A stretch of 64,000 bases of DNA from Thermoactinospora rubra (GTDB lineage Bacteria > Actinomycetota > Actinomycetes > Streptosporangiales > Streptosporangiaceae). The translations under genes were made by a program, and so were the position numbers. Position 1 is the stretch's first letter, and every line of letters starts with the position of its first letter. The stretch covers positions 1 through 64,000 of the forward strand of contig NZ_KZ084334.1 of the NCBI RefSeq assembly GCF_002093975.1, written 5' to 3'. The notes under the pieces were generated by a model. The model searched no databases and was not told where the DNA came from. It saw nothing but the letters and a program-made list of their open reading frames with translations. Shown piece after piece: positions 11,562 through 58,298 of the stretch.

Positions 11562-12872
11562 TCAACTGGCGTGCAGCTGTTCGACCAGCAACCGGTAGGT
11601 CTGCCGGGGCCTGCCGGGACCGGTCGACCGCGCCGGCGGCAGCTGCCAGGCCAGGCCCTGTTCGATGAGGTTCAGCAGCACACGGCGCGCGGCCCGCGGC
11701 GTCATGTCCAGCAGCTCCGCCACCGTGCCCGCGTCGACCACCAGCGGTGCGTCGCCGCCCGCGCCGGCCGCCCGCGCCAGCTTCTCCAGCGTCACCAGCG
11801 CCTTCGCCCGCTTGTCCTCCCGCAGCACCTGGCGGGCGTCCGGCCTGCCCGATCGCAGCAGCGCGCTCCTCGGCAGCGAGGCGCCGGGACGGGTCAGCGC
11901 CTTGCGCGCGTCGGCTTCGGCCGCCTGTGCCGTACTGCCCAGCCCGATCCCGATCTCGATCGCCAGGCCCAGTTCCTCCCGCACCCGCCGGACGAACGGC
12001 TGTTCGGTGAGGTCGTTGGTCGCCGTCACCAGGGACCCGTAGGTCGCGATCACGTAGAAGCCGTCCTCGCCGTCGGGCAGCACGGTCGCCCCCATCCGCC
12101 GGGCTTCCTTGAGCAGCACCGTGTGCACCGCCAGCCGCAGCTCGTTGCGGCCCGGTCCCGCCGGGGTGTCGGCGGGCAGCTTCACGATGCCCACGACGAT
12201 CTGCGCCTCCTCGAGGCGGCTGCCGATGCCGAGCAGCGCCGCCGTGCGCACCGCCAGCCGAATCGTCGCGGTGGTCGGGCGCATCAGCAGGACCGGGACG
12301 CTCTCGCTCTCGAGGCGTTGCGCCACGGTGCGGACGCTGGTCAGCGCCAGCGTCGTCGTGCCGCTGCGCCATTGCTCGCGGTGGAAGTCGAGGAACTCGG
12401 CGGGCGAACCCGGGTCGCGGTACTCGTAGACACGCACCCCGTCGCTGGGCAGCCGGACGTCGGAGTAGGCCTCCCGCACCTCCCGCTCGGGAACCGAGTC
12501 GATGCTCACCCGGCCCACGTCGACGCCGAGTTCGAGCTTCGCCCGCAGCAACGTCCCGAACAGGGCGGAACCGGACAGCGGTATGGAGGTGGCCGGCACG
12601 TCGAGCACGCCCGATTCCTGCGCCAGATCGTGCGGCAGCGGCCCGGCGAAAAGGCATGCGTCCAGGTCGCTTTGGACCCTCTGCAACGCCCGGGGAATCT
12701 CCAGCTCATCGGCGTAGGAAATGCCGGCCAACTCGAAATCCAGCACTCCGGCGGCCGCCATTCCCGCGCCGACCTCCAAGATGCGCTCGATCAGGTCGTC
12801 GGGCGCGACGACCCCCACCACCGGCCGGCGCGGCGTGGCTGCATCGCTGAGAGTCGCCAACGATTCTCGCAC
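11562..12872 (-). CDS. multi-domain winged-helix regulator with degenerate nucleotide-cyclase-like domain
   Basis: A 436-residue protein next to the catabolic operon. Residues ~15-190 look like an alpha/beta sensor (VVGVVAPDDLIERILEVGAG, then VQSDLDACLFAGPLPHDL). Residues ~205-335 (QIVVGIVKLPAD, LRLAVHTVLLKEARRMGATV, then EIGIGLGSTAQAAEADARKA) have the strand-helix pattern of GGDEF/GTP-cyclohydrolase-III folds but no GGDEF signature. The C-terminus (VAELLDMTPRAARRVLLNLI then EQGLAWQLP) is a winged helix. It is soluble. It lies 42 bp downstream of the last gene of the left-reading operon and in the same direction, and is the only regulator of this 18-kb locus, so a role as its ligand-sensing switch is a reasonable inference. 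Confidence 0.65.
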   Translation of the reverse strand: MRESLATLSDAATPRRPVVGVVAPDDLIERILEVGAGMAAAGVLDFELAGISYADELEIPRALQRVQSDLDACLFAGPLPHDLAQESGVLDVPATSIPLSGSALFGTLLRAKLELGVDVGRVSIDSVPEREVREAYSDVRLPSDGVRVYEYRDPGSPAEFLDFHREQWRSGTTTLALTSVRTVAQRLESESVPVLLMRPTTATIRLAVRTAALLGIGSRLEEAQIVVGIVKLPADTPAGPGRNELRLAVHTVLLKEARRMGATVLPDGEDGFYVIATYGSLVTATNDLTEQPFVRRVREELGLAIEIGIGLGSTAQAAEADARKALTRPGASLPRSALLRSGRPDARQVLREDKRAKALVTLEKLARAAGAGGDAPLVVDAGTVAELLDMTPRAARRVLLNLIEQGLAWQLPPARSTGPGRPRQTYRLLVEQLHAS

Positions 12873-12914
12873 TCCTCCTACCCCTGATCGGCCGCCCAGT
12901 CTATCCCTCCGGCG

Positions 12915-14156
12915 TCACGTTGACACGAACTCGGCGTGCACCTTGGCGAACGCCTCGGCGATGTCGTCGGCGTCGGAATCGGTGTAGGCCTCATTCCACG
13001 ACACCACCAGCCACGTCCGCCCGATGAGCCGCTCCGCGTTCGGGCACAATCCTTCCGGATAATGCCACTCTTTTCGCGCGGGCGGCGCGGTGAGCGGAAA
13101 TGCCGAACCGCCATAGAGATTGCGTTCGGCCAGCACCGGATAACGGTAGGCCGGCATGCTCAGGTAACCCGCGGAGACCGGGACGCCCTCGGCGGCCAGC
13201 GCTTTCGCCCACTCCTCATTGGACGGCAGAGCCGGGTCGAGCACCACCGGGAACAGCCACACGGCATGACTGTCGAGGTCGGCGGGCACGGTCAGGCCGG
13301 GCAGCCCGGCCAGCCGTTCGGCGAGCCGTTTGGCCGTCGCCCGACGCCGGCTGACCACGCCGGCCAGCTTGGGCAGCTGCGCCCGCGCCACCGCGGCCTG
13401 CAGCTCGGTCATCCGGTAGTTCATGCCCAGCGACAGGTGCGTGCGCCGCCCGGTGTGCCGGGGCCAACCCTTGTCGGCGAACAGCCGCATCGCCGTCGCC
13501 AGCCGTTCGTCGCCGGTGATCGCCAACCCGCCGTCGCCGCTGGTGATGTGCTTGTACTGCTGCAGGCTGAAACACCCGACGTGCCCGGCGGTGCCGGCGA
13601 GCGCGCCGCCGGGGAGCTCGGTGAGGTACGCCTGGGCGCAGTCCTCGATCAGCACCAGGTCGTGCGCCCGGGCGAGCTCGGCCAGCTCGGCGATCGGCGC
13701 CGGAGCGCCCATCAGGTGCACCGCGATGATCGCGCGGGTCCGCTCGGAGACGTTCGCCTCGACCGAGGCCGGGTCCAGCAGGCCGGTGCGCGGGTCGACG
13801 TCGGCGAACACGGGGACCGCGTTCTGCGCCAGGATCGGGATCACCGTACCGAAGTCGGTGATCGGCGTGGTGATGATCTCATCGCCCGGCGCGGGGTCCA
13901 CCGCGCCCACCGCCAGGTGCAGCGCCGCCGTACCGGAACTGCACGCCACCGCGTGCCTGACCCCGTGGTAGGCGGCGAACTCCCGTTCCAGCGCCGGCAC
14001 CTCGGTGCCCCCGCTGGCGCACAGGTGGGCGCTGTCCAGCACCCTGCGCACGGCCGCCGCCTCCTCCGGGCCGATGGTACGGCCGGCTGGCTCGGTCGGG
14101 CCGGGCAGCGGAGCCGTACGCACGGGTGTGCCGCCGTGCAGCGCGAGCGTGGACAT
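12915..14156 (-). CDS. DegT/DnrJ/EryC1-type PLP aminotransferase (first copy)
   Basis: A 413-residue fold-type I PLP enzyme of the sugar aminotransferase family. The PLP-binding lysine is Lys202 in SLQQYKHITSGDGG; VACSSGTAALHLAVGA binds the phosphate, and IEDCAQAY carries the aspartate that contacts the pyridine ring. Family members transaminate keto-sugars, usually in antibiotic or cell-wall sugar biosynthesis. Here it lies last among the enzymes of an operon with an ABC importer, lyase and hydrolases, so removal of an amino group from an imported sugar is possible. Its ATG overlaps the FAH gene stop by one base (TGATG). Confidence 0.85.
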   Translation of the reverse strand: MSTLALHGGTPVRTAPLPGPTEPAGRTIGPEEAAAVRRVLDSAHLCASGGTEVPALEREFAAYHGVRHAVACSSGTAALHLAVGAVDPAPGDEIITTPITDFGTVIPILAQNAVPVFADVDPRTGLLDPASVEANVSERTRAIIAVHLMGAPAPIAELAELARAHDLVLIEDCAQAYLTELPGGALAGTAGHVGCFSLQQYKHITSGDGGLAITGDERLATAMRLFADKGWPRHTGRRTHLSLGMNYRMTELQAAVARAQLPKLAGVVSRRRATAKRLAERLAGLPGLTVPADLDSHAVWLFPVVLDPALPSNEEWAKALAAEGVPVSAGYLSMPAYRYPVLAERNLYGGSAFPLTAPPARKEWHYPEGLCPNAERLIGRTWLVVSWNEAYTDSDADDIAEAFAKVHAEFVST

Positions 14157-15073
14157 CAGCTCTCCCCGTGCTCGAAACCGTGCTCGAAACCGTGCTCGAA
14201 ACCGTGCTCGAACCGCACCCGGTTGCGCAGCGTGCCGACGGTGCCGATGCGCACCTCGACCGTGCCGCCGTCGGGCACCGGCCCGATGCCGTCGGGCGTG
14301 CCGGTGGCGATCACGTCGCCGCGTTCCAGGGTCATCAGCGCGGACAGCCGCCGCAGCAGCTCGCCCATGCCGAAGATCATCTTGCTGGTGCTGGAGCGTT
14401 GCCGGATCTCGCCGTCCACCCGCACCTCCAGCTCCAGGTCCTGCGGGTCGGGCACCTCGTCCGGGCTGACCAGCCACGGGCCGACCGGGCCGTAGCCGTC
14501 GATGCTCTTGCTGAGGTCCCACGGATGGCGGGCCTCGATGTCGGCGAGCTGGAAGTCCCGCGCGGTCAGGTCGTTCATGACCGAGTAGCCGGCGACCGCC
14601 GTCCGCCAGTCCTCGCCGGCGCCCAGGTTCCTGATCCGGCGCCCGACCACCACCACGAGCTCGCCCTCGTGGTCGATCCGCCGGGTCGCGGGCGGCACGC
14701 TGATCTCCGCGCCGTGCCCGGCCAGTGTGTTCGGGCCCTTGAGGAAGATCACCGGCCGTTCCGGCGGCGTGAACCCGCCCTCCTCGGCGTGGGCGCGGTA
14801 GTTCAGCGCGAGGCAGACGATCTTCGACATGCCCCGCACCGCCGGGGCGAAGGTGACCTCCTCCTCGGCGAAGGTCCCCTCGGCGCGCGCCGCCGCCAGC
14901 TCCGCGGCCTTGGCCGCCAGCTCGGCGCGGTCGGCCCGCTCCAGCAGGTCCAGCGCGTCCCGCGGCGCCGACGGGTCGACCAGCTCGACCGGCACCACGC
15001 GGTATCCGGCGCCGTCCGGGCAGCCGATGGCCAGGCGCTGCTCGCCGGCGAGGTGGATGTAGCAAAGCCTCAC
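14156..15073 (-). CDS. fumarylacetoacetate hydrolase-family enzyme
   Basis: A 305-residue FAH-fold enzyme. The divalent-metal triad is present: Glu136 and Glu138 in RIDHEGELVVVVGRRI and Asp168 in YSVMNDLTARDFQ; LALNYRAHAEE, IFLKGPNTL and ATGTPDGIG are family signatures. Members cleave or decarboxylate acylpyruvates; one branch is the 2,4-diketo-3-deoxy-rhamnonate/fuconate hydrolase of non-phosphorylative sugar pathways, which suits the dehydratase in this locus. The C-terminus carries four FEHG units encoded by a 12-bp tandem repeat. The start overlaps the upstream amidohydrolase stop. Confidence 0.85.
   Translation of the reverse strand: MRLCYIHLAGEQRLAIGCPDGAGYRVVPVELVDPSAPRDALDLLERADRAELAAKAAELAAARAEGTFAEEEVTFAPAVRGMSKIVCLALNYRAHAEEGGFTPPERPVIFLKGPNTLAGHGAEISVPPATRRIDHEGELVVVVGRRIRNLGAGEDWRTAVAGYSVMNDLTARDFQLADIEARHPWDLSKSIDGYGPVGPWLVSPDEVPDPQDLELEVRVDGEIRQRSSTSKMIFGMGELLRRLSALMTLERGDVIATGTPDGIGPVPDGGTVEVRIGTVGTLRNRVRFEHGFEHGFEHGFEHGES
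14171..14206. repeat. 12-bp tandem repeat, three full copies in the FAH 3' end
   Basis: CTCGAAACCGTG is repeated perfectly at 14171, 14183 and 14195, with partial copies on both sides. On the coding strand it adds FEHG units to the protein C-terminus; the unit length keeps frame. Confidence 0.95.
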
Positions 15074-15873
15074 AGCTGCTCCTTCAACAGGGCTTGGTAG
15101 GCGCCGCCGAGCACGGTGCGCCGATCGGCCAGGGAGAGCTCGGCGAAGAGCACCCGGCCGATGGAGTAGCGAAGATCGATGAAGGGGAAGTCCGAGCCGT
15201 AGATCACGCGGTGCGCGCCGAGCTCGCCGACCATCCGCGCGAGCCAGCGGCCGGTGAAGAACGATCCGCAGATCTCCAGGTACAGGTTGGGGAAGCGGGC
15301 GGCCAGGTCGATGACCTTCGGGAAGCCCTCCGCCACCGCGCCCGCGTGCCCGGCCAGCACCTTCACATCGGGATAGCGCTCGAAGACCTCACCCAGCAGC
15401 GCCGGATCGTCCACGTCGGATCCCGTCCAGGTGTGGGTGAGCACGGGGGCGCCGGTCTGCTGCGCCCACTCCCACGCCACCCGGTACCGCGGCCCGTTGA
15501 GCGGGTAGCGGTGCAGGTCCGGGTGCAGCTTGACGCCGATCATGCCGGGCGCCCCCGCCCACCTGGCCAGCTCGCCTTCCGGGTCCTGGTGGGGGTTCAG
15601 CACGATGTAGGCGCTGAGCCGGTCGGGGAACTCGCGCACGGCCGCCGCGGCCGCCTCGTTGCCGCGCCGCGCGTCCAGCTCGATGCCGTGGGTCGAGGAG
15701 AGTACGGCACGCCGTACGCCGCAGCGGTCCATCACCCGCACCATGGCCGCGGCACTCGGGTCGGGTGTGTAGAAGCGGCTGTAGGGGCCGAGGTGGGCAT
15801 GCGCGTCGATCACGTCCACGCCCCGCAGCGGCGCGCGCTCCAGCACCGGCCCCGTCAGGGCATCGGCCGTCAT
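15070..15873 (-). CDS. amidohydrolase_2-family metal hydrolase (active-type copy)
   Basis: A 267-residue TIM-barrel amidohydrolase. All expected metal and catalytic positions are visible: VIDAHAHLG (His25 and His27), a histidine in APVLTHTWTG, a histidine in VKVLAGHAGAV, and the aspartate in RVIYGSDFPFID. The family includes sugar lactonases (such as L-fuconolactonase) and decarboxylases. Within this locus, lactone hydrolysis between the oxidoreductase and the enolase-type dehydratase is the most economical guess. Start ATG 15873 overlaps the upstream partner's stop by 4 bp (ATGA), suggesting coupled synthesis with the degenerate paralogue. Confidence 0.85.
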   Translation of the reverse strand: MTADALTGPVLERAPLRGVDVIDAHAHLGPYSRFYTPDPSAAAMVRVMDRCGVRRAVLSSTHGIELDARRGNEAAAAAVREFPDRLSAYIVLNPHQDPEGELARWAGAPGMIGVKLHPDLHRYPLNGPRYRVAWEWAQQTGAPVLTHTWTGSDVDDPALLGEVFERYPDVKVLAGHAGAVAEGFPKVIDLAARFPNLYLEICGSFFTGRWLARMVGELGAHRVIYGSDFPFIDLRYSIGRVLFAELSLADRRTVLGGAYQALLKEQL

Positions 15874-16610
15874 GCGGCGCCCCGCAGCAGCTCGCGTGCC
15901 GATCCGGCGCCGACCGCGCGCACGGCCTCGTCGTCCAGTTCCGACCACAGCAGCCGGGTGACCGCGTCGGCCGGATCGCGTAGCGGCATCCCCGTGCCGA
16001 ACAGCACGCTGCGCGTCCCGAACCGTTCGACCAGCCACTCCAGGCCGAGGTGGCTGCCCAGGTAGGACAGGTCGACGTGCACGTTGGCGTTGCGGCCGAG
16101 CACCCCGGCCAGCTCGCGCAGCTTGCGGTACCCGACCCGGCACACCACCACGTGCAGCTCGGGGCGTGCGCTCGCCACCTGCTCGATCTCGGGCCAGGAC
16201 GTCTGATCCATGTCCAGCAGCAGCGGCAGACCGGCCTCGGCCATCTCCTCCAGCAGGGGCGCGACGTCCGGTCCGGCCAGCTGGAAGCCGTGGTCGTGCG
16301 GATACAGCCGGATCGCCCGCACCCCGCTCGCGACCGCGTTCGCCACGAAGCCGGGTCCGACCTCGCCGCAGGTGTCGGGCAGCCCGACCCAGCACGGCAG
16401 GAGCCGCTCGTCGCCGGCGATCTCCTCCAGGAGCAGCCGGTTGCCCTCGGCGGGGTCGTGCCGCCACGCCGCGGAATGCGCGACCAGCGCGCTGCCGATG
16501 CGCAGCCGTTCCATGGTCCTGCGCAGCTCGGCGACGCCGCCGTCGCCGACGTCCTCGGCGGGCAGCCGGCCGATCATGGCGTTGACGTCCAGCAGTTCGG
16601 TTCGTCTCAT
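15870..16610 (-). CDS. amidohydrolase-like protein lacking the metal ligands
   Basis: A 246-residue paralogue of the adjacent amidohydrolase, recognisable by its barrel pattern (LLPCWVGLPDTCGEVGPGFV, AIRLYPHDHGFQLAGPDVAP, VHVDLSYLGSHLGLEWLVE). The usual HxH is replaced by DVNAMIG, the strand-5 and strand-6 histidines by LLLDMDQTSW and VVVCRVGYRK, and the late G-S-D-F-P by LFGTGMPLRDP. It therefore probably cannot hydrolyse by the family mechanism. It overlaps its neighbours by 4 bp on both sides, so it is kept in strict stoichiometry; a structural or regulatory partner of the active copy is one reading. No signal peptide is visible. Confidence 0.75.
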   Translation of the reverse strand: MRRTELLDVNAMIGRLPAEDVGDGGVAELRRTMERLRIGSALVAHSAAWRHDPAEGNRLLLEEIAGDERLLPCWVGLPDTCGEVGPGFVANAVASGVRAIRLYPHDHGFQLAGPDVAPLLEEMAEAGLPLLLDMDQTSWPEIEQVASARPELHVVVCRVGYRKLRELAGVLGRNANVHVDLSYLGSHLGLEWLVERFGTRSVLFGTGMPLRDPADAVTRLLWSELDDEAVRAVGAGSARELLRGAA

Positions 16611-17821
16611 GCGGTCCGCTTCGCCTTCCGCACCAGCGCCACCGCGGTCACCACGTCCCACATCTCCTCCGGCTCGGCCAGCAGCAGGTTGTGCGGCAGC
16701 CACACGGTCTCCGCGCATGCCCGCTCGCACACCGGCAGGTCCAGCTCGGCGTACCGGGTCGGCACGTGCTCCGGCCGCCACCCGGTGGCCGCCACGTCGA
16801 AGTTCCGCTCGGCGAACAACGGCTGGCGCGGCAGCGGGCGCGGGTAGCCCGGCGTGGCCGGGATGCCGTGCTCCTGCAACGCCTGACAGAACTCCGGGAG
16901 CGGCGGGCCGCCGAACTCCTCGGCCCGGTACCTGAAGGCGTACAGGTGGTGGGCGTGCGCGGTCGTGCGGGGATCGCGGGCCAGCGGTACGATGCCCGGC
17001 AGCTCGGCCAGTTCCCGGTCCAGCAGCTCGGCGCACGCCTCGCGGCGGGCGATCTGCTCCGGCAGGCGCGCCAGCCCGGCCGACAGCACCGCCGCCTGGA
17101 ACGCCGTGAGCCGCCAGTTGCCGCCGAGGGAGAAGTGGTCGTACCAGCCGAACCCGGGGCGGCGGCCGCAGTTGCGCAGCTCGCGTGCGGTCGCGGCGAG
17201 TCGCGCGTCGCCGGTGCTGAGCGCGCCGCCCTCGCCGCCGGTGAGGTTCTTCGAGCCCTGGAACGACCAGGAGCCGAACTCGCCGAACGTGCCGACGGCC
17301 TGCCCCTTCCAGGAGGCGCCGTGCGCGTGGGCGCTGTCCTCGATGAGGGCGAGCCCGTGCCGCGAGCAGATGTCGCGCAGGCGGTCCAGGTCGGCCGGGT
17401 GGCCGGCGAAGTGCACGGCGATCACCGCTGTGGTGTTCGGGCCGATCGCGGCCTCGACGGCGTCCGGGTCGATGCAGTAGGTGTCGGGGTCGATGTCGGC
17501 GAACACCGGCAGCGCGTTGACCTTCAGCACCGCCGAGGCGGTGGCCAGGAACGTATAGGGCGGCACGATCACCTCGTCGCCGCTGCCGATGCCCAGCGCC
17601 GCCATGGCGATCTCCAGGCTCACCGTGCCGTTGGTGCAGGTGACGACGTGCTCGGCGCCGAGGAATTCGGCGTAGGCCCGCTCGAAGGCGAGCACCGCGG
17701 GCGCGTCGACCCCGTTCCACTCGCCGGATTCGACGACGCGGCGCAGCGCCTCGGCTTCGGCGGCGTCGTGCCGCGGCCACGACGGCCACGGCCTGGCCCG
17801 GACCGGGTTGCTGGTGGGCAT
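16607..17821 (-). CDS. DegT/DnrJ/EryC1-type PLP aminotransferase (second copy)
   Basis: A 404-residue sugar aminotransferase, clearly different from the copy at 12915. Catalytic Lys191 lies in SWSFQGSKNLTGGEGG, the canonical motif; VVTCTNGTVSLEIAM and LALIEDSAHAHGA bind the cofactor. The substrate loop RNCGRRPGFGWYDHFSLGGN is typical of ScyA-like 3-amino-sugar enzymes. Its ATG directly abuts the stop of the lyase gene and its own stop overlaps the next start by 4 bp. Two such enzymes with two Gfo-type proteins recall the NtdA/NtdC pair of kanosamine biosynthesis, but the importer argues for a catabolic direction. Confidence 0.88.
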   Translation of the reverse strand: MPTSNPVRARPWPSWPRHDAAEAEALRRVVESGEWNGVDAPAVLAFERAYAEFLGAEHVVTCTNGTVSLEIAMAALGIGSGDEVIVPPYTFLATASAVLKVNALPVFADIDPDTYCIDPDAVEAAIGPNTTAVIAVHFAGHPADLDRLRDICSRHGLALIEDSAHAHGASWKGQAVGTFGEFGSWSFQGSKNLTGGEGGALSTGDARLAATARELRNCGRRPGFGWYDHFSLGGNWRLTAFQAAVLSAGLARLPEQIARREACAELLDRELAELPGIVPLARDPRTTAHAHHLYAFRYRAEEFGGPPLPEFCQALQEHGIPATPGYPRPLPRQPLFAERNFDVAATGWRPEHVPTRYAELDLPVCERACAETVWLPHNLLLAEPEEMWDVVTAVALVRKAKRTA

Positions 17822-20065
17822 TCAGCTGTTCCTTTCGATGTCAACCGACTCGATGTGGACCGACTCGATGTGGACCGACCACGTGCCCGCGGCGGGCAGC
17901 ACCACGTGCGCCCATCCGTCCGCCGTGGTCAGGGGAAGCACGACGTCGTTGAGCCGGACCACCGAGCCCGGTTCCGCCGCCAATCGCACGCCCGTACGGC
18001 TAGCGCACGTGAGTTCCGCGCTGGTGCGGCCGTCCGCGCGGGTGAGCACCGCCGACCGAAGCTCACCGGTGACGGCGGCCAGCACCTCGCGGCCGCCGTA
18101 CTCGATGCGTGTGCCGCTCCACAGCACGGCCGAGGAGATCGCGCCGCCGTCGGCGCGCACCAGGCAGCCGTCGCCCAGCGTGACCGTGGACCGGCCGCTC
18201 CGCACGACTGTGCCCGGTTCGACTGCGCCCGCTTCGACTGGGCCCGGCTCGACGGTCAGCTCCGGTGGCTCGGCCGCGTAGGGAACCAGGACGTGGGTGA
18301 CCGTGCCGGGACGGTAGGTGAGGCTGAGCCCGTGCAGGGTGCCGGCTTCGGCGCCGGCCGTGGTGGGCACCGTGGTGGCGCCCTCCGTGAAGCGGGCCTT
18401 GACCGGCGTCGACGGGCTCAGCACGACCAGGCCGGGAGCCGACGACGAACGGTACCCGCCCGGCGTCTCCCGCCAGGGCGACAGGCCGTTCAGGGTCCAC
18501 TCGAACTCCTCGGCCACCTCGTCGGTGATCACCCAGTAGCCCGGCGTCCCGGCGTCCGGCTTGACCAGCACCACCTGGCGGCGGTGCCGTACGCCCAGCC
18601 CGTCGTGCGTGGCGGCCAGCACGTCGGCCACCGGTGACATCAGCACGTGCTCGACCCGGGCGTCGTGCTCGTCGGCCATCTCGCGGCCGGGCAGCAGCAC
18701 CGTGTTGTGCGCCCGCCCCGCCCGGTACCAGCTCTGGTAGGCCGGGTCGTCGTAGCTGTCCGGGCCGCCCGCCTCCCAGGCCAGCGGCCTGCCGAAGGCG
18801 GCGAGCACGAAGTCCAGCACCGTGCGGTGGCTGTGGGTCTCCAGCTCGTGTTCGATCAGCGGCCCGCAGTTCACCACGGCGAACAACCCGCCCTCAGCGG
18901 CCCGCTGCACGGCGAACTTGCTGTGCGCCAGCCAGGCCGACCGCTCGGGGGCGGCCGCGCTCGGCGCCCGCTCGAACTCCTCGACCGGGTCGCCGCGGCC
19001 GGGCCGGGGCGGCAGCCAGGACAGCACCTCGGCGATCCGCCCGGCGGGCAGCCCGCGCACCGCCGCGTCCTTGTAGTGCGGCCGCTCCAGCAGGTAGTGG
19101 CCGCGCAGCAGCAGCTCGGCGCTGCGGACGAGATGCGAGTCGTTGAACGGCGGCACCCAGCCCCCGGGCGAGGTGATCGACAGCAGCCAGTCGTGCATGG
19201 CGGCGAACCGGGGGTGCGCGACCAGGTCCCAGCCGAGCCGCTGCTCTCCCGCGATCGCCGCGAACTGCAGCGCGCCCAGGCACATCGTGTGGTAGGACGG
19301 CGCCCGCTCGTAGTGGCCGCCGTCGGCGTACACGTCCAGCTCCAGGTGTTCGAGCAGCCGCCGGTGCGCCAGCCGCGCCCACCCGGCCGACTCGGCCGCC
19401 TCGGGCAGGAACGCCGCGATCTGGGCCAGGACCGAGCACCCGGCCAGCTGCCAGTTGCCGTGCCGGAACGCGGTGTGCTCCTCGGCCAGCCAGCGCGCGC
19501 CGCCGAGCACCGTCTTGAGCATGCGCGCCCAGCTCGCCTCCGGCATGGCCGTGCCGAAGACGTGCAGCGCCTCCATGAAGACCTGTGCCCGGCCCGCGAC
19601 GCCCAGGGTGTACCAGACGACGTCCAGCCCGGGCCACTCGCCCTTCACCGAGTCGCGGGAGGCGTACCAGGCGTCCACGATGGCGGCGAACTCGGCGAGG
19701 TAACGCTCGTCGCCGGTCAGGGCGTAGGCGCGGGTGAGCGGCTGTGCCCAGTGGAGGTAGTGGAAGCCGTAGAGGCCGGACCTGCCGTGTGCCGGGTCGA
19801 GGAAGTCCACCGGCTTGCCCAGCAGCTTCTCGGCCTGGGCGAGAGTCGCCGCCCTGGCCTGCGGCCCGGCCCGGCGGGCCCACCGCAGCGGGTCCATCGC
19901 CGGGGCGACGTCCCGCCCGGCCAGGTGGTCACGCAGCGCGGCGATGCTCGGGGCGCCGAAGGCGGCGAGCAGGTCGGCGTCGGGGATGTGCCGCATGCGG
20001 CGGGTGTCCACGTGCGGCGGCTTCTCCACGAAGCCGGTCATAGGTCCGGTCATGGGTCCGGTCAT
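17822..20065 (-). CDS. heparinase II/III-like polysaccharide lyase, cytoplasmic
   Basis: A 747-residue enzyme. An alpha/alpha-toroid half (YGFHYLHWAQPLTRAYALTG, VWYTLGVAGRAQVFMEALH, HGNWQLAGCSVLAQIAAFLP, YADGGHYERAPSYHTMCLGA) is followed by the heparinase II/III C-terminal beta domain (LFAVVNCGPLIEHELETHSH, DVLAATHDGLGVRHRRQVV). Tyr and His in YERAPSYH and the histidines near HELETHSH are the likely catalytic and metal residues. Members eliminate uronate-containing glycans. There is no signal peptide, so it probably acts on imported oligosaccharides. Three in-frame ATGs in 12-bp repeats make the start ambiguous (20065, 20053 or 20041). Confidence 0.8.
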   Translation of the reverse strand: MTGPMTGPMTGFVEKPPHVDTRRMRHIPDADLLAAFGAPSIAALRDHLAGRDVAPAMDPLRWARRAGPQARAATLAQAEKLLGKPVDFLDPAHGRSGLYGFHYLHWAQPLTRAYALTGDERYLAEFAAIVDAWYASRDSVKGEWPGLDVVWYTLGVAGRAQVFMEALHVFGTAMPEASWARMLKTVLGGARWLAEEHTAFRHGNWQLAGCSVLAQIAAFLPEAAESAGWARLAHRRLLEHLELDVYADGGHYERAPSYHTMCLGALQFAAIAGEQRLGWDLVAHPRFAAMHDWLLSITSPGGWVPPFNDSHLVRSAELLLRGHYLLERPHYKDAAVRGLPAGRIAEVLSWLPPRPGRGDPVEEFERAPSAAAPERSAWLAHSKFAVQRAAEGGLFAVVNCGPLIEHELETHSHRTVLDFVLAAFGRPLAWEAGGPDSYDDPAYQSWYRAGRAHNTVLLPGREMADEHDARVEHVLMSPVADVLAATHDGLGVRHRRQVVLVKPDAGTPGYWVITDEVAEEFEWTLNGLSPWRETPGGYRSSSAPGLVVLSPSTPVKARFTEGATTVPTTAGAEAGTLHGLSLTYRPGTVTHVLVPYAAEPPELTVEPGPVEAGAVEPGTVVRSGRSTVTLGDGCLVRADGGAISSAVLWSGTRIEYGGREVLAAVTGELRSAVLTRADGRTSAELTCASRTGVRLAAEPGSVVRLNDVVLPLTTADGWAHVVLPAAGTWSVHIESVHIESVDIERNS
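17835..17879. repeat. 15-bp tandem repeat, three copies at lyase 3' end
   Basis: TCGATGTGGACCGAC occurs at 17850 and 17865 exactly and at 17835 with two changes. It encodes the C-terminal SVHIE/SVHIE/SVDIE of the lyase and lies within 15 bp of its stop. Confidence 0.9.
18217..18261. repeat. 15-bp degenerate tandem repeat inside the lyase gene
   Basis: ACTGTGCCCGGTTCG, ACTGCGCCCGCTTCG and ACTGGGCCCGGCTCG follow one another and encode VEPGP/VEAGA/VEPGT in a surface linker of the beta domain. Divergence suggests it is older than the other arrays. Confidence 0.75.
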
Positions 20066-21081: not shown

Positions 21082-21095
21082 GGTTCGATGACTCC

Positions 21096-22391: not shown

Positions 22392-22419
22392 CGATGGCCT
22401 CCGGGGATCGGTGGGGTGG

Positions 22420-22449
22420 TTGACACCCTGCTGACTGGGGGGCTAGCTT
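22420..22449 (+). promoter_or_regulatory. putative promoter for the right-reading permease operon
   Basis: A perfect -35 TTGACA (22420-22425) is followed after 18 bp by TAGCTT (22444-22449). Transcription would start near 22456, leaving about a 120-base leader before ATG 22579. Consensus match only. Confidence 0.45.
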
Positions 22450-22451
22450 CG

Positions 22452-22476
22452 CCTTAATTTCTACGGTCCTTAAAGG
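22452..22476. promoter_or_regulatory. candidate operator between facing promoters
   Basis: CCTTAA at 22452 and the palindrome CCTTAAAGG at 22468-22476 (same-sense units 16 bp apart) form an AT-rich island lying between the -10 boxes of both promoters, where one bound repressor could block both operons. Confidence 0.4.
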
Positions 22477-22489
22477 CTGTTCCGGACCA

Positions 22490-22517
22490 AGGTTATAGCG
22501 AGCGGTGTGGGTGTCAA
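22490..22517 (-). promoter_or_regulatory. putative promoter for the left-reading catabolic operon
   Basis: On the reverse strand TTGACA (22517-22512) is followed after 16 bp by TAACCT (22495-22490). The transcript would start near 22483 and lead into the binding-protein gene at 22391. Confidence 0.45.
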
Positions 22518-22578
22518 GAGCAACCAGCGGTCGAGCACGAGCCCCCGGCACAGAACCCGACACAGAAGGGTGTGGTGA

Positions 22579-23517: not shown

Positions 23518-24335
23518 TGTGGCCGGCCCGCCGGATCGGCCTGTACGGTGTCCTGTCGCTCATCGCGGCGCTGTTCGTGCTGCCGTTCCTCATCCTGCTG
23601 TCCTCCAGCCTCAAGCCGGCCACGCAGCCGCTGCACGAGTTCCCGCCGCAGCCGGTGCCGCTGCCCCCGGTGCTCGACTGGTTCGCCGAGGCGTGGACGA
23701 AGATCGACTTTCCGGTCTACCTGTGGAACTCCGTGCTGCTGGAGATCCTCACCCTGCCCGCCTACCTGCTGATCTCGGCCTTCGCCGGATACGCGCTGGC
23801 CTGCTACGACTTCCGTGGCCGGCAGCTTGTGTTCTACCTGATCGTCTCCACGATGTTCCTGCCCGGCGAGGTCATGCTGGTCCCCCGGTTCCTCGTGGTG
23901 TCGCAGCTGGGCATGGTCGACACCTTCGCCGGGGTCGTGCTGCCGGGTCTGATGTCGGCGTTCGGGATCTTCCTCGCCCGCCAGGCGTTCGAGCAGCTGC
24001 CCAGAGAGCTGTTCGACGCCGCCCGGATCGACGGCGCGGGCCACTGGCAGACGTTCTGGCGGGTCGCGCTGCCGCAGGTCCGGCCCACGCTGGCCACGCT
24101 GGCGATCTTCGGCTTCATCAACGTGTGGAACAACTTCATCTGGCCGCTGGTGGTGCTGTCCAGCGAGGACAAGTACCCGCTCGCGCTCGGCCTGGCCTAC
24201 CTGGCCGGCACGTTCGGCGACGACCAGCGCAGCATGGCCGCCGGCACGGTGATGGCCGCGCTGCCGGTGGTGGTCTTCTTCATCGCCATGCAACGGCACT
24301 TCGTCGAGGGACTGAAGGGTTCGGTCAAGGGCTGA
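23517..24335 (+). CDS. ABC sugar transporter permease (MalG/UgpE type)
   Basis: A 272-residue second permease half, with six predicted spans from GLYGVLSLIAALFVLPFLIL to TVMAALPVVVFFIAMQ. The EAA loop reads LPRELFDAARIDGAGHWQ, and the C-terminus HFVEGLKGSVKG is the MalG-type ending. ATG 23517 lies within the upstream stop (TGATG), and AAGG just upstream is the ribosome site. A longer start at 23448 would overlap the first permease by 70 bp and is not needed. Confidence 0.93.
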   Translation: MWPARRIGLYGVLSLIAALFVLPFLILLSSSLKPATQPLHEFPPQPVPLPPVLDWFAEAWTKIDFPVYLWNSVLLEILTLPAYLLISAFAGYALACYDFRGRQLVFYLIVSTMFLPGEVMLVPRFLVVSQLGMVDTFAGVVLPGLMSAFGIFLARQAFEQLPRELFDAARIDGAGHWQTFWRVALPQVRPTLATLAIFGFINVWNNFIWPLVVLSSEDKYPLALGLAYLAGTFGDDQRSMAAGTVMAALPVVVFFIAMQRHFVEGLKGSVKG

Positions 24336-25240
24336 TGCGCATCGGGCTGGTGGACCTGGACACCTCGCACCCCGGCGAGTTCGTGCCCATCGTGCGCGCG
24401 CTCGGGCACGAGGTGGTGGGGGTGGTCGACGGCGGCACCGTGTGGGACCGCGGGTACGCGCACGAGTTCGCCGCCCGCCACGGCATTCCCCACGTGTTCG
24501 GCTCCTGCGCCGAACTCGCCGCCGAGGTGGACGCGGCGTTCCTGCACGGCTGCGACTGGGACGCGCGTGTCGAACGCGCGGCGCCGTTCGCGGAGGCCGG
24601 GGTGGCCCTGCTGGTCGACAAGCCGTTCGGCGGCGACACCGCGACGATCCGCACGCTGCTGGAGTGGGAGCGGGGCGGGCTGCGCGTCACCGGCGGCTCG
24701 TCGCTTCGCTGGTGCGCGGAGGTCGCCGGCTTCGCGGCCGGCGGCGAGCGGCCGCACTTCGCGCTCACCGGCTGCTCCGGCGATCCGTTCGACTACGGGA
24801 TCCACGCCTACTCGATGCTGCACGGGCTGCTCGGCCCCGGCGTGGTCGCCGCCAGGCACCTCGGCGGGTACGGCCAGCAGCGGGTGGAGCTGCGCTGGTC
24901 CGACGGGCGCACCGGCATGGTGTCGGTCGGCGAGACGGCGGAGCGGCACCCGTTCCACGCCACCGTTCTCACCGGATCGTCGGTGACCCATCTCACCGCG
25001 GCGCCCGGCGGCCTCTATGCGAGCTTCCTCGCCGCCGTGCTGCCCGGCCTCGCGGGCGAGGCGCCCCTGCCGCCGCTGCCGGAGCTGGTCGAACCGGAAC
25101 TGGCCGCGCTCGCCGCGCTGATGTCGGAAAGGGACGGCGGGCGCTGGGTGGCGCTGGACGAACCGGCGCTGGACACGGTGCGCTACGACGGCGCCGGGTT
25201 CGCCGCCCGGTACCGGGCGGCCCGGCGGGGCACCGCATGA
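24335..25240 (+). CDS. Gfo/Idh/MocA-like protein without the canonical Rossmann loop
   Basis: A 301-residue protein with the two-domain layout of the family: ALLVDKPFGGD (EKP-type motif) and GDPFDYGIHAYSMLHGLLG in place of the catalytic helix. The N-terminus, however, reads MRIGLVDLDTSHPGEFVPIV, with no GxGxxG dinucleotide loop. The DTSHPG signature marks a distinct branch whose cofactor use is unclear. It is cytoplasmic. ATG 24335 overlaps the permease stop by one base and its own stop overlaps the dehydratase start, so it is fully co-translated with the importer and the dehydratase. Confidence 0.75.
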   Translation: MRIGLVDLDTSHPGEFVPIVRALGHEVVGVVDGGTVWDRGYAHEFAARHGIPHVFGSCAELAAEVDAAFLHGCDWDARVERAAPFAEAGVALLVDKPFGGDTATIRTLLEWERGGLRVTGGSSLRWCAEVAGFAAGGERPHFALTGCSGDPFDYGIHAYSMLHGLLGPGVVAARHLGGYGQQRVELRWSDGRTGMVSVGETAERHPFHATVLTGSSVTHLTAAPGGLYASFLAAVLPGLAGEAPLPPLPELVEPELAALAALMSERDGGRWVALDEPALDTVRYDGAGFAARYRAARRGTA

Positions 25241-26439
25241 TGAGGGTCCTGGACACCGTGGTGTCGTTCCGCCCGGTGCCGTTCACCACGACGCTCATGC
25301 TCAGCTCCGGCCCGATCACCGGCCTCACCGAGGCCCTGGTGGAGGTGACGGTTCTCGGCCCGGCCGGCCGGCCGGCGCGCGGGCGGGGTTCGGTGCTGCT
25401 GTCCTACCCGTGGACCGGCGAGCCCGGCGGCGACGCCGCCATGCGGCAGACGGCCGAGCGGTTCGCCAGGGACGCGACCGGCCTGACGGCGGCCGACCCG
25501 CTGCGGCTCGGCGTCGAGCTGACCGGCGACCTCACCACGCTGACCGAGATCGTCTGCGCCGCTCCGCTGGACGCGGCGCTGCACGACGCCTGGGCGAACG
25601 CGCTCGGCGGCCGCGCCTACGAGAACTACACCGCCGAGCACCTGGCCGGCGACCTCGGCGACTATCTCGGCCCGGAGTTCCGCGGCCGCTACCCGGCGGA
25701 CTTCCTGCGCGCCGTGCCCCGGCCCGCTCTGCCCGTGCAACACGTGGTGGGCGTCGGCGATCCGCTCACCCCCGGCGAGGGCGGCCGGCCGCTCACGGAC
25801 TGGATGGCGGCCGAGGGCGTGCGCTGCTTCAAGGTGAAGGTGGCGGGCCGGGACCCGGTGGCCGACGCACGCCGGATCGCCGACGTGTACCGGGTCGCCA
25901 CGGCCGGCGGGCGAAGCGTGTGGTTGTCGCTCGACCCCAACGAGGCCTACTCCTCGCCGGAGGCGGCGGCCGAGCTGCTGCACGCGCTCGCCCGCCTCTC
26001 CCCCGCCGCCCACCGGGCGGTGCGGTACATGGAGCAACCGGTGCCGCGGGACTCCACGGCGGACATGAGCGGGCTGGCGCGAATGCTGCCCGTGCTCGCC
26101 GACGAATCGGTCACCGGCCTGGCCGGCTTCGCGAGCCTGCGGTCGCGCGGCTGGCCGGGCCTGGCGTTGAAGACGGCCCGCGGTCACACGCTGAGCCTGC
26201 TGGCGTACTGCTGGGCCCGCCGGCACGGGCTCTTCACCGCCATGCAGGACCTCACCTGCACCGGCGACGCGCTGCTGCACTCGGCCGCGTTCGCGTCCTA
26301 TCTGGACTGCTCGGTGCCGACGCTGGAATGCAACAGCAGGCAGTACGCCCCCGAGGCCAACACCGGCCGGGCGGGCCTGCTGGCGGTCCGCGACGGCGAG
26401 CTGAGCCTGAGCGCGCTACCGCGGAAAGGGATCAGATGA
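25237..26439 (+). CDS. enolase-superfamily (mandelate racemase type) acid-sugar dehydratase
   Basis: A 400-residue enolase-superfamily enzyme. The catalytic KxK is Lys199/Lys201 in VRCFKVKVAGRDP; metal ligands follow as Asp233 (SLDPNEAY), Glu266 (RYMEQPV) and Asp289-Glu290 (VLADESVTG); Lys312 in LALKTARGH completes the site. The layout fits muconate-lactonizing/dehydratase-like subgroups rather than the His-Asp dyad group of classical mandelate racemase. Expected chemistry is proton abstraction next to a carboxylate, for example dehydration of an aldonate to a 2-keto-3-deoxy acid. The start is ATG 25237 or 25240 (ATGATG); overlaps occur at both ends. Confidence 0.85.
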   Translation: MMRVLDTVVSFRPVPFTTTLMLSSGPITGLTEALVEVTVLGPAGRPARGRGSVLLSYPWTGEPGGDAAMRQTAERFARDATGLTAADPLRLGVELTGDLTTLTEIVCAAPLDAALHDAWANALGGRAYENYTAEHLAGDLGDYLGPEFRGRYPADFLRAVPRPALPVQHVVGVGDPLTPGEGGRPLTDWMAAEGVRCFKVKVAGRDPVADARRIADVYRVATAGGRSVWLSLDPNEAYSSPEAAAELLHALARLSPAAHRAVRYMEQPVPRDSTADMSGLARMLPVLADESVTGLAGFASLRSRGWPGLALKTARGHTLSLLAYCWARRHGLFTAMQDLTCTGDALLHSAAFASYLDCSVPTLECNSRQYAPEANTGRAGLLAVRDGELSLSALPRKGIR

Positions 26440-28316
26440 CCCTGTTACGTTTCCCGGTCCCCCGGCCCCGCGCCTCCTACCCCGAGCCGGGCCGCTTCCA
26501 CGCACCGCCGGGCGCGGCCGTGCACTGCTCGCCCGGCGCCCAGCGCGCGGGCCGCATCGTGGCGCGGGCCACCGGGCTCCCCCTGCGCCTGGCCGGGCAC
26601 GAGCCGCGGATCGTGGTCGCGCCGGAGCCCGAGGCCGGGCGGCTCCACCCGCCGCGCCGGCCGGACGGCTTCGCGGTGCGGGTCGCGCCGGACCGGATCG
26701 AGCTGGCCGCCGCCGGCCTCCGTGCCCTCGGCTACGCGGCCACCGTCCTCGCCGAGCGGGGTCTCGGCTGCGGGCGCGTGGTCGACTTCGCCGACCTCGC
26801 CGTCCGTGCCGTCCACCTCGACCTCAAGGGCCCGATGCCCGCGCCGGCCTACCTGACCGGCCTGCTGGCCGAACTTTCGCGGTGCCGCGTCAACGCCGTG
26901 CTCGTCGAGTACGAGGACAAGTTCCCCTACAGCGCGGGCCTCGGGCTGGCCGGCGCGCAGGCGCTCACCCGCGAGCAGCTGCGGGAACTGCTCGACGCCG
27001 CCCGGGAGCACGACATCGACGTGATCCCGCTGGTGCAGTGCCTGGGCCACAACGAGCACGTCCTCGCCCACGAACGCCACCGGGCGCTGGCCGAGGACGA
27101 CCGGCACGCCGACCTGTGCCCGGCCCTGCCCGGATCGCTGGAGCTCGTCGGCGCGCGGCTGGCGGAGCTGATCGCCGCGCACCCGGACGCGAGGCTGGTG
27201 CACATCGGCGGCGACGAGCCGTGGTCGCTGGGCCGCTGCCCCCGCTGCCGGGCCTACGCCGCCGAGCACGGCAAGGCCCGGCTGTGGGCGGACTACGTGG
27301 CCCGGGTGGCGCGGATCGTGGCCGAGGCCGGGCGCACGCCGGTGGTGTGGGACGACGTGCTGCACGGGCAACGCGACCTGTCCGTCGTGGACCTCCTGCC
27401 GGCCGGGACCGTCCTCATGCAGTGGGAGTACTGGGAGCACACCGAGCACACGGGGCACATCCGGTGGGGCGCGCCGCCGAGCATGGTCGCCCCGGCGGCG
27501 TTGCGCGACGACCCCGAGGCGCTGCCGGGGTTCCCGGCCAACGGCGTGCTGCACGACCTGGAATCCCTGCCCGAACACGAGCAGGACGTGCTGCGCGCGG
27601 TCAAGTACGACCACGGATCCCGCTCGCTGGCCTGGCTGCGCGGGCTCACCGCGCTCGGGGTGCCCGTGCTGGGCGCCGCCGCCGCGCGCGGCGCCGACGG
27701 CGAGGACGTCTGCGCGCCCCGGTGGCATCGGCGCATCGGCAACATCACGCAGTGGGCCCGGCAGGCCCGAGCCGCCGGCGCGCTGGGCGTGGTCACCACC
27801 GCGTGGTCGGCCTACAGCGCGGTCACCGCGCCCTGCGAACCGCTCGCCACCGCCGAGCCCGGCTTCGCGGCGTCCGGCCTGCTCTACTGGAACGCCGACC
27901 TCGGCGAATCCGAGCTGGACGCCGCGCTCGACGGGATGCCGCGCCTCCTCCGCCTGCTGGACAGCGCCGAGCCGCACCACTGGGCGGCGGCACGACGCGC
28001 GTTCACGGCACGGGAAGGCGGCACCCTGTGGGCGCTGCTGGCCGAACACGCCGACATCGAGGCCCGCACCGCCGAGGCCGCTCGCGCCGCGGCCTTCCAC
28101 ATCCACGCCGCCGAGGCGAAGTCCCCGGCGCTGGCCTGGGCGCGCGCCGAGGTGGCGGGCCGATGCTCGGCTCTGGTGGCCGAGTGGCTGGCGTGGCGGG
28201 AGGCGTTCGCCCGCGAGCTGCGCACCCACTACGTGCCCGCCGCGGCCGACCACGTAGCCGCCGTGAAGGCGGCCGAGCCGCTGCACCGGCTGCGCGCGCT
28301 GCTGGACGCGCTGTGA
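26436..28316 (+). CDS. GH20-like beta-N-acetylhexosaminidase-family enzyme
   Basis: A 626-residue protein. The N-terminal part (to ~125) resembles the GH20b substrate-assist domain, and the TIM barrel starts near VRAVHLDLKGPMPAPAYL. The GH20 Asp-Glu pair is Asp260-Glu261 in LVHIGGDEPWSLG, and the downstream tryptophans (VLMQWEYWE) and VTTAWSAYS line the -1 pocket. In GH20 the aspartate orients the 2-acetamido group, so an N-acetylamino sugar at the non-reducing end is the likely target. No signal peptide is seen. Codon 4 is the rare TTA. The ATG overlaps the dehydratase stop (ATGA). A repeat array follows the stop. Confidence 0.8.
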   Translation: MTLLRFPVPRPRASYPEPGRFHAPPGAAVHCSPGAQRAGRIVARATGLPLRLAGHEPRIVVAPEPEAGRLHPPRRPDGFAVRVAPDRIELAAAGLRALGYAATVLAERGLGCGRVVDFADLAVRAVHLDLKGPMPAPAYLTGLLAELSRCRVNAVLVEYEDKFPYSAGLGLAGAQALTREQLRELLDAAREHDIDVIPLVQCLGHNEHVLAHERHRALAEDDRHADLCPALPGSLELVGARLAELIAAHPDARLVHIGGDEPWSLGRCPRCRAYAAEHGKARLWADYVARVARIVAEAGRTPVVWDDVLHGQRDLSVVDLLPAGTVLMQWEYWEHTEHTGHIRWGAPPSMVAPAALRDDPEALPGFPANGVLHDLESLPEHEQDVLRAVKYDHGSRSLAWLRGLTALGVPVLGAAAARGADGEDVCAPRWHRRIGNITQWARQARAAGALGVVTTAWSAYSAVTAPCEPLATAEPGFAASGLLYWNADLGESELDAALDGMPRLLRLLDSAEPHHWAAARRAFTAREGGTLWALLAEHADIEARTAEAARAAAFHIHAAEAKSPALAWARAEVAGRCSALVAEWLAWREAFARELRTHYVPAAADHVAAVKAAEPLHRLRALLDAL

Positions 28317-28367: not shown

Positions 28368-28379
28368 AAGGAGGAAGCG

Positions 28380-29963
28380 ATGGAGATGAGGGGATTAGAC
28401 CGGCGGCAGGTCCTGCGCGGCGCGGTGCTCGGCGGTGTCGGGCTGGCCGGCTTATCGGTGTTCGGCACCTCCCGCGCCCCGGCGCTGGCCGACACCGCCG
28501 ACTACACCTCGCGTGCCGCGTTCGACGCGCTCGACCTCGGCTTCAACAACGGCGACGGACTGAAGAACGAGACCAACGAGAGCTTCGGCCAGCTCGGCTG
28601 GGGCGAGTCCTACGTGCTGCAGTCCTACCTGCTGATGTACGAGGCGAACGGCGACGCCTACTACCTGGACAAGGCCGCCGACCACATCGACAGCGTGCTC
28701 GCCAACCGGGACCACGTGCGCGGCGTGACCGACTGGAAGGGCCGTTCCCTGCCGGGCTGGCGGCTGGGGCACCCGTACTCGTGCGGCGAGCTGTTCCTCA
28801 AGGACGCCTCCGGCACCGAGATCCTGCGGCTGCGCTCGCCACGGGCGTACTCCAAGCTCATCGAGGTCACGGTGAGCGAGGGCACCAACCCCGGCACGTT
28901 CAAGATCTACGCCAGGCATCCGCTGCCCAGCTTCAACAAGCCGGGCGACCCGTGCGAGGAGACGCACGACAACCTGTCGATGGATCCGGGCAGCCCCGAC
29001 TACGTGGTGCGCAGGCTGTGGGACGGCTTCAGCATCAACGACGTCGGGCTCACCGCGAAGGACCTGCGGCCCTCCCCCGCTCCCGGCCCGAACCCGATGC
29101 CGCTGTCGGCGACGATGGCCGCGCCGTTCTTCCACTCCTCCGTCCACACCGGCCAGATCGCCTACCCCATCGCCAAGTACGCCCGGCTGGTGGCCCGCTC
29201 TCCGCGGCTGCGCCGGAGCAGGTCGATGCGGGCGCGGGCCGCCGAGTACTACCAGGCCGCCGCCGCGGCGCTCCACATCCACGACGACGAGGTCCGCACG
29301 ACCCCCGCCGGTGGCGCGCTCTACGGCTACCACAAGGGCGACCCGGTGAACCTCGACGGCTCGGACCTGCCGCACAACTACTCGACCAGCATGGCGCGCG
29401 GGTGGCTGGAGCTCGCGATGGCCGGCCAGGACCCGGAACCCCGGGCCAGGGCCGAGGCACTGGTGCGCAACTTCCGCGACGACATCAAGCGCCTTCCCGA
29501 CGGCACCGGCTCGTGGACCTACTACTGGACCGGCGGCGACTGCTACCGCGGCTGGACGCGGGAGAGCGGAATCTCGGAGAACATGCCGGCCATCGGCGCG
29601 GGCACGCGCGGTGAGGACATCTCGCACGGGCACATCGAGATGACCATGGCGATCACCGCGCACCTGGCCGGGGTGCTGTTCAACACCCCGGACATGCGCA
29701 TGCTGGCGAACACGCTGACCCGCAAGGTGCTCAAGACGCAGGACGGCAGGCCCGTGACCAGCAACTGGGTCGACGGGTCCGGGGTGACGACCGGTTACCG
29801 CCAGATCGTGGCGGGCTGGCTCGGGCTCGCGCCGTTCGCCGAAGACCGCACCGCGTTGGTCGGCACGGTTCACCAGATGCTCCGGGACACCAACCCGGTG
29901 CCCGGCTCGGTGACCATGTACGCCTCGGCGTGGTTGAACTGGGCTACCCGCGTATCCCCGTGA
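28380..29963 (+). CDS. Tat-exported alpha/alpha-toroid protein, probable glycan-active enzyme
   Basis: A 527-residue exported protein. The N-terminus is a Tat signal: LDRRQVLRGAVLGGVGLAGL, then an ALAD-type cleavage region near residue 39. The mature chain is helical with repeating hairpins (FGQLGWGESYVLQSYLLMYE, YLDKAADHIDSVLANRD, LPHNYSTSMARGWLELAMAG, ISHGHIEMTMAITAHLAGVL), the pattern of alpha/alpha toroids seen in polysaccharide lyases and uronyl epimerases. I cannot assign a family. RBS AAGGAGG lies six bases upstream. TTA codons occur at positions 6 and 25. It is the last gene of the right-reading operon, so it may act outside on the polymer that the locus consumes. Confidence 0.7.
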   Translation: MEMRGLDRRQVLRGAVLGGVGLAGLSVFGTSRAPALADTADYTSRAAFDALDLGFNNGDGLKNETNESFGQLGWGESYVLQSYLLMYEANGDAYYLDKAADHIDSVLANRDHVRGVTDWKGRSLPGWRLGHPYSCGELFLKDASGTEILRLRSPRAYSKLIEVTVSEGTNPGTFKIYARHPLPSFNKPGDPCEETHDNLSMDPGSPDYVVRRLWDGFSINDVGLTAKDLRPSPAPGPNPMPLSATMAAPFFHSSVHTGQIAYPIAKYARLVARSPRLRRSRSMRARAAEYYQAAAAALHIHDDEVRTTPAGGALYGYHKGDPVNLDGSDLPHNYSTSMARGWLELAMAGQDPEPRARAEALVRNFRDDIKRLPDGTGSWTYYWTGGDCYRGWTRESGISENMPAIGAGTRGEDISHGHIEMTMAITAHLAGVLFNTPDMRMLANTLTRKVLKTQDGRPVTSNWVDGSGVTTGYRQIVAGWLGLAPFAEDRTALVGTVHQMLRDTNPVPGSVTMYASAWLNWATRVSP

Positions 29964-56734: not shown

Positions 56735-56746
56735 GGGCGAGACCTT

Positions 56747-58267: not shown

Positions 58268-58298
58268 GCTGAACACAACTCCTCGCGTATGAGCAGGC

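Follow-up and report, generated by a model that had tools for sequence, protein, structure and literature searches.

In the non-phosphorylating pathways of L-fucose and L-rhamnose (route 3, FucA-B-C-F-G), the conversion involves a dehydrogenase, a lactonase of the amidohydrolase superfamily and a diketo-acid hydrolase of the FAH family (PMC11199699). In Pseudoalteromonas, the oxidative chitin pathway of the ong cluster relies on a D-aminoacylase and a deaminase alongside RidA (PMC9537276). The present study deals with an 18-kb locus of Thermoactinospora rubra (genes g14-g28), which lies in the first 64,000 nucleotides of contig NZ_KZ084334.1; this whole stretch is called the window. The locus had been predicted to combine the catabolism of acid sugars with amino-sugar chemistry. 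Our analysis shows that it is a real and conserved catabolic locus, likely with the predicted class of function, and its new points are a pair of active and inactive amidohydrolases and the apparent replacement of one aminotransferase by another.

At the level of families, the locus shares the logic of dehydrogenase, amidohydrolase and FAH hydrolase with the L-fucose/L-rhamnose route. Unlike in that route, the dehydrogenase is a Gfo/Idh/MocA protein, the amidohydrolase is paired with an inactive homologue, a lyase belongs to the core and the step of a 4-dehydrogenase would fall to a conserved aminotransferase. Moreover, the core holds no aldonate dehydratase of the mandelate-racemase type; the enolase homologue g26 is of the muconate-lactonizing enzyme (MLE) type and is not part of the core of the relatives. 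With ong the locus has in common a GH20 enzyme, nitrogen removal dependent on pyridoxal phosphate (PLP) and probably the cytoplasmic catabolism of an amino-sugar acid, and a RidA gene is present in the Jiangella relatives. On the other hand, the D-aminoacylase, D-amino-acid deaminase and 2-keto-3-deoxygluconate (KDG) kinase of ong are all missing among the 15 genes, whereas ong has no lyase, FAH hydrolase, amidohydrolase pair or transaminase. In the open literature searched, nothing relevant was found on the gene combination of this locus, nor any description of a conserved active/inactive Amidohydro_2 pair.

Conservation of the core in other actinomycetes

Genes were called by codon usage and families were assigned with Pfam and NCBIfam. 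A heparinase search in 297 genomes of the class gave six relatives repeating the core in 20-kb neighbourhoods, and a profile of g18 retrieved 28 loci, for which the presence of g18 was the selection criterion and the remaining genes are free observations. These loci span seven genera (Nonomuraea, Streptosporangium, Rhizohabitans, Jiangella, Phytoactinopolyspora, Labedaea and Amycolatopsis), and the locus of Nonomuraea ceibae is the closest to the window. The core, consisting of a regulator, two amidohydrolases, a heparinase-like lyase, a Gfo/Idh/MocA enzyme and an ATP-binding cassette (ABC) importer, is found in 26/28 loci, with g18, g20, g21, g22 and g23 co-located in 26/28. The genes g17, g24 and g14 are lacking solely in loci that are cut short, g14 being kept at the operon end in 25/28, and the toroid gene g28 accompanies the core nearly always and is lacking in a few loci. 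Homologues of g21, 55-91% identical, occur in all 28. The remaining two loci (L057 and L058, Jiangella) are of a related kind, in which a DegT aminotransferase sharing 61% identity with g15 occurs together with an aminotransferase of the glutamate-1-semialdehyde (GSA) type and an FAH hydrolase.

Because the gene order is conserved in dozens of genomes, a chance grouping of the genes is ruled out on the evidence of sequence comparison, and the core is flanked by differing neighbours in different genera. Synteny confined to this strain had been named beforehand as a finding that would refute the original prediction, and the core was found well beyond this strain. The further expectation that about 15 genes would be conserved as one set did not hold; what is conserved is a core of about nine genes together with the FAH hydrolase and one aminotransferase. 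Extra genes are carried by the Jiangella versions (RidA, D-Ser-dehydratase-like and RraA-like) and by those of Streptosporangium and some Nonomuraea (BadF-type kinase, SIS and ceramidase-like), and these are consistent with amino-sugar chemistry.

A palindromic promoter motif near ATTAtGGaCGtCCaTAAT is present in 20/27 divergent regions between g22 and g23 (loci L033-L056), and it is not present in that of the window or N. ceibae. A common regulon of the core and distant genes through this motif was rejected, as the motif is missing in these two loci and upstream of the GSA-type gene. The plasmid search returned remote relatives only, mostly rhizobial and haloarchaeal. Two haloarchaeal plasmid clusters (L006 and L008) hold heparinase, GH20, Gfo/Idh and aminotransferase genes, L008 also FAH and D-aminoacylase genes, and they provide an archaeal parallel at the family level only. 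In Phytoactinopolyspora endophytica, the heparinase and Gfo/Idh genes (L030, 8194-12035) are apparently interrupted by frameshifts in the assembly.

Apparent exchange of the aminotransferase

In most of the relatives the aminotransferase belongs to class III and is akin to glutamate-1-semialdehyde aminomutase (GSA-type); mostly, an FAH gene with 46-52% identity to g16 lies next to its gene. Both genes are found beside the core or elsewhere in most of the core-bearing genomes. In seven genomes without the two near the core, they lie adjacent to each other elsewhere in the genome, with 81-85% (GSA-type) and 84-87% (FAH) identity to Streptosporangium proteins, the next-best matches being at most 41% and about 49%. 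That the GSA-type genes are the housekeeping aminomutase is excluded by this identity gap (81-90% vs at most 41%). Among the genomes of 149 relatives, the GSA-type enzyme is found in 20, all of which (20/20) have g18 (E <1e-90), and in none without g18 (Fisher p = 6e-22, uncorrected for phylogeny). The three genomes with g18 at this level and no GSA-type gene are those of the window (G000), of G005, which is taken as N. ceibae, and of G009.

In the window and N. ceibae, the DegT aminotransferase g19 sits between the lyase and g18, and at that match level g19 is found only in these two of the 149 genomes. Phytoactinopolyspora halotolerans carries both a DegT and a GSA-type aminotransferase. Since the window and N. 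ceibae have g19 in the operon and no GSA-type gene, the simplest reading of the sequences is that the transamination, which looks essential, was kept and its enzyme swapped. The linked aminotransferase and FAH step of the original prediction is supported, and FAH and aminotransferase genes track the core across genomes. The nearest solved proteins of g16 include HpcE-type enzymes, 2,4-diketo-3-deoxyrhamnonate hydrolase and FAHD1.

Predicted active and inactive amidohydrolases

The two genes predicted as amidohydrolases, g17 and g18, are both recognised by PF04909, but only the former has the metal site. All five metal ligands of g17 (Table 1) are kept in 36/36 sequences of g17 and its relatives, whereas the g18-type proteins keep none or one (35 sequences scored), and g18 itself has N, M, D, R and G at the positions of the HxH, H, H, D set. 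The AlphaFold model of g18 is nevertheless an amidohydrolase barrel (mean predicted local distance difference test score, pLDDT, 88), and its Foldseek matches in the PDB are amidohydrolases. Thus g17 is like the lactonases and decarboxylases of the Amidohydro_2 family in its ligand set and g18 in its fold, and the pair is unlike them in that a conserved metal-less homologue is encoded beside the active protein. The two types of genes are adjacent wherever they were read. In the maximum-likelihood tree, one branch divides the active from the inactive proteins (support 99/97; 200/200 bootstrap trees), and both halves show much similar inner branching, with some long branches and unsure deeper placements. 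This pattern is as expected for a single ancient split followed by joint inheritance of the two types. Judged by its ligands, only g17 is predicted to be catalytic, and the two proteins may form a heteromer.

Such pairs are also found outside the core. Another contig of the same genome (G000:C7) has two active/inactive pairs with an ABC importer and a DegT aminotransferase, an arrangement recurring in G045 and G001. In G081 one pair lies beside an enolase-family gene, and the pair of G009 belongs to another locus, which lacks the lyase. The G000:C7 region (L083, 276000-292958) is a second sugar locus with an importer, an aldolase resembling dihydrodipicolinate synthase (DHDPS; by eye), the two pairs and the DegT gene; the same arrangement is seen in L075 and L077.

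Lyase, dehydrogenase and exported protein

The catalytic residues of heparinase III are Asn240, Tyr294 and His424 (PMC12088678). Heparinase III was the first match of g20 in the profile search, and N196, Y250 and H403 of g20 align with N240, Y294 and H424 and are invariant, the 24-residue offset in numbering being taken from the matched sequence. A heparinase-like lyase without signal peptide had been predicted; the triad is intact and inspection of the start revealed no obvious signal peptide, so this enzyme probably works once its substrate has been imported. It resembles the PL12 heparinase III in the catalytic Asn, Tyr and His and in the two-domain architecture, and differs from it in the lack of an obvious signal peptide, in low identity and in a neighbourhood of sugar-acid enzymes. 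With 49 bits, g20 stays below the cut-off of 700 for the NCBIfam heparin-sulfate lyase HepC equivalog. Likewise, g21 scores 160 bits against the IolG (inositol 2-dehydrogenase) equivalog model, for which the cut-off is 355.

The predicted export of a toroid protein by twin-arginine translocation (Tat) agrees with the N-terminal motif RRQVLRG of g28 and its AlphaFold model (pLDDT 84), which shows a helical toroid into which a beta domain is inserted. The protein has no Pfam match, and its model shows weak PDB similarity to toroids of the GH76, AGE and GH105 types. As several toroid families were matched weakly, no enzyme class was assigned to it.

Proposed pathway and alternative explanations

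With the enzyme families established by sequence, we infer the substrate, the reactions and their order. The reading that we favour, with slightly better than even confidence, is that the locus serves to take up an acidic amino-sugar glycan and to degrade it in the cytoplasm, along a non-phosphorylative sugar-acid pathway in a transaminative form. In this scheme, g28 would trim the polymer outside the cell and g22-g24 would import the resulting oligosaccharide, from which monomers would be freed by g20 through beta-elimination and, in the window strain, also by the GH20 enzyme g27. The sugar would then be oxidised by g21 to a lactone or keto sugar, and the g17:g18 heteromer would hydrolyse the product, probably opening the lactone. 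The aminotransferase would turn the ring nitrogen position into a keto group, and cleavage of the resulting 2,4-diketo acid by g16 would yield pyruvate together with a small hydroxy acid. An accessory side branch may be formed by g15, g25 and g26 in the window strain. A substrate containing uronate and N-acetyl-amino sugar is plausible because a lyase, a GH20 enzyme and an aminotransferase occur together in the locus.

A more specific proposal has two parts and is put forward only tentatively, as we doubt that both hold together. An aminotransferase of either PLP family would make the keto group needed by the FAH hydrolase, so that nitrogen removal and preparation for cleavage occur in one step, and the catalytic amidohydrolase would work only as a heteromer with its metal-less homologue, the two having split once and been inherited together since.

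Several observations weigh against the favoured pathway. The conserved core encodes no dehydratase to make the 3-deoxy acid, although the lyase itself could supply the 3-deoxy step. The score of g16 against the NCBIfam model of rhamnonate (2,4-diketo-3-deoxy-aldonate) hydrolase is 157 bits, the cut-off being 500, and the nearest solved relatives of g19 are 2-deoxy-scyllo-inosose aminotransferases, which are biosynthetic enzymes of keto-cyclitols. One relative (L035) has the GSA-type aminotransferase and no close FAH orthologue was found in its genome, and the motif shared by the g22/g23 promoters was not found upstream of the GSA-type gene.

The relatives of g19 would also suit the catabolism of an aminocyclitol or rhizopine-like compound, in which an amino-cyclitol glycoside would be the substrate, g21 an inositol-type dehydrogenase and g19 and g15 enzymes of keto-inositols; IolG is indeed the best NCBIfam model of g21, though under its cut-off. 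However, a lyase with an intact triad for uronate beta-elimination has no role in cyclitol breakdown, the aminotransferase of most relatives is of the GSA type and not DegT, and no downstream gene of the iol type is present among the 15 genes, which makes this explanation improbable. We regard with similar scepticism an ordinary use of glycosaminoglycan-type polymers through the standard KduI/KduD/KDG route, with the aminotransferase, FAH hydrolase and amidohydrolases serving something else. The heparinase III triad of g20, the GH20 gene of the window and the BadF-type kinase and SIS genes of some relatives fit such a use, but the FAH and aminotransferase genes track the core across genomes, and KduI, KduD, KDG kinase and GH88 are absent among the 15 genes, the rest of the genome not having been searched for them.

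DegT, Gfo/Idh and heparinase-like genes occur also in biosynthetic clusters, and the locus could be one for an amino-sugar natural product or a surface polysaccharide. The presence of a solute-binding protein and permeases for import, of a lyase, an FAH hydrolase and amidohydrolases, the lack of any glycosyltransferase, nonribosomal peptide synthetase (NRPS), polyketide synthase (PKS) or export gene in this set of 15, and a core kept across genera with different neighbours render this very improbable. For the transaminative pathway, the import, the catabolic class, the lyase, the aminotransferase and the FAH step of the original prediction are retained, whereas the enolase-type dehydratase for acid sugars and the conservation of about 15 genes as a set are not supported as stated, and one of the two amidohydrolases is a homologue lacking the metal ligands.

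If the transaminative pathway is right, soil actinomycetes would have a route to consume amino-containing acidic glycans without kinase-based pathways, and one metabolic step would be filled by two aminotransferase families in otherwise matching operons. It would also name a conserved active/inactive amidohydrolase pair that is open to direct expression. The locus also offers a compact case for how far the logic of gene neighbourhoods predicts an uncharacterised pathway.

Gene organization and accessory genes

The locus was predicted to be intact and divergent, and this is what was found: 15 open genes at 11562-29963, of which the nine genes g14-g22 are read from the minus strand and the six genes g23-g28 from the plus strand, diverging at 22391/22579, with the named families recovered in Pfam and NCBIfam (Table 1). 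Nearly all genes had been said to overlap by 1-4 bp; this holds for 8 of the 13 same-strand junctions (overlaps of 1 or 4 bp), while one is abutting and the other four leave 14-93 bp between the genes. No ATPase for the importer is encoded among g14-g28.

Table 1. Genes and promoter region of the locus, with positions in the window.
Feature	Position	Strand	Evidence
g14, putative regulator; degenerate GGDEF/GCH_III-like domain, winged-helix-like C-terminal end	11562..12821	-	PF05165 weak, under cut-off
g15, DegT/DnrJ/EryC1/StrS aminotransferase, accessory	12915..14156	-	PF01041 3e-87
g16, FAH-family hydrolase	14156..15073	-	PF01557 (FAA_hydrolase) 2e-65
g17, amidohydrolase subunit, predicted catalytic	15070..15873	-	PF04909 (Amidohydro_2) 6e-30; ligands H25 H27 H147 H176 D228
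g18, metal-less amidohydrolase partner, predicted pseudoenzyme	15870..16610	-	PF04909 (Amidohydro_2) 8e-16
g19, DegT aminotransferase inside core operon	16607..17821	-	PF01041 2e-105
g20, heparinase II/III-type lyase	17822..20041	-	PF16889 + PF07940 (Hepar_II_III N + C domains); N196, Y250, H403
g21, Gfo/Idh/MocA dehydrogenase	20062..21081	-	PF01408 (GFO_IDH_MocA) 1e-30
g22, sugar ABC solute-binding protein	21096..22391	-	PF01547 (SBP_bac_1) 5e-30
divergent promoter region	22392..22578	.	gap separating divergent g22 and g23
g23, ABC permease	22579..23517	+	PF00528 (BPD_transp_1)
g24, ABC permease	23517..24335	+	PF00528 (BPD_transp_1)
g25, Gfo/Idh/MocA-like protein, accessory	24335..25240	+	no Pfam match; tblastn to annotated Gfo/Idh/MocA proteins
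g26, enolase-superfamily protein, muconate-lactonizing type, accessory	25237..26439	+	PF13378 (MR_MLE_C); alignment to 3i4k
g27, GH20-like beta-N-acetylhexosaminidase, accessory	26436..28316	+	PF00728 (Glyco_hydro_20) 6e-15; GGDE motif at 258
g28, toroid protein with Tat export motif and a beta-domain insertion	28380..29963	+	RRQVLRG at residue 8; predicted fold

The second DegT (g15), the second Gfo/Idh protein (g25), the enolase homologue (g26) and the GH20 enzyme (g27) are classed as accessory from the sequence comparisons. In the DNA alignment with N. ceibae, window positions 24345-26436 (whole g25 and g26) are cleanly absent there, and of g15 a C-terminal piece of 111 residues is all that remains, which means that g15 was lost in that species. 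A second Gfo/Idh/MocA protein had been named, and g25 qualifies by its tblastn matches. Among the 28 loci, g27 is common to the window and N. ceibae only. Its GGDE motif aligns with GADE of 8qk1, the best solved relative, so that the catalytic Asp-Glu pair of GH20 is present; with the PF00728 match and no signal peptide obvious by inspection, it corresponds to the GH20-like enzyme that was predicted.

Within the enolase superfamily, the mandelate-racemase type is the one known for acid sugars, and the subgroups are told apart by their Lys pattern. In the alignment to the muconate-lactonizing enzyme 3i4k, the Lys-x-Lys (199, 201) and Asp-Pro-Asn motifs of g26 are preserved, as are its Glu, Asp and second Lys. 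As this is the pattern of the muconate-lactonizing subgroup, g26 is assigned to the MLE type and not to the classical acid-sugar dehydratases; the predicted superfamily is correct, and a dehydration by an MLE-type g26 is possible. Use of g26 as a synteny marker was rejected, only distant homologues (33-45%) being found, in different sugar loci of Nonomuraea. Another type of Nonomuraea cluster (L009, L010 and L011) combines several Gfo/Idh genes, only one amidohydrolase gene and a creatininase-like gene with distantly related homologues of g25 and g26.

Elsewhere in the window, a further ABC sugar importer, distinct from that of the locus, lies at 54758-62869, accompanied by a GH13-type enzyme, a LacI-type regulator and an exported protein of repetitive sequence. 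Two overlapping minus-strand frames at 40492-41831 look by eye like one amino-acid transporter gene split by a frameshift, and beside them an arginine-deiminase-like gene (by eye) is present at 39648-40469.

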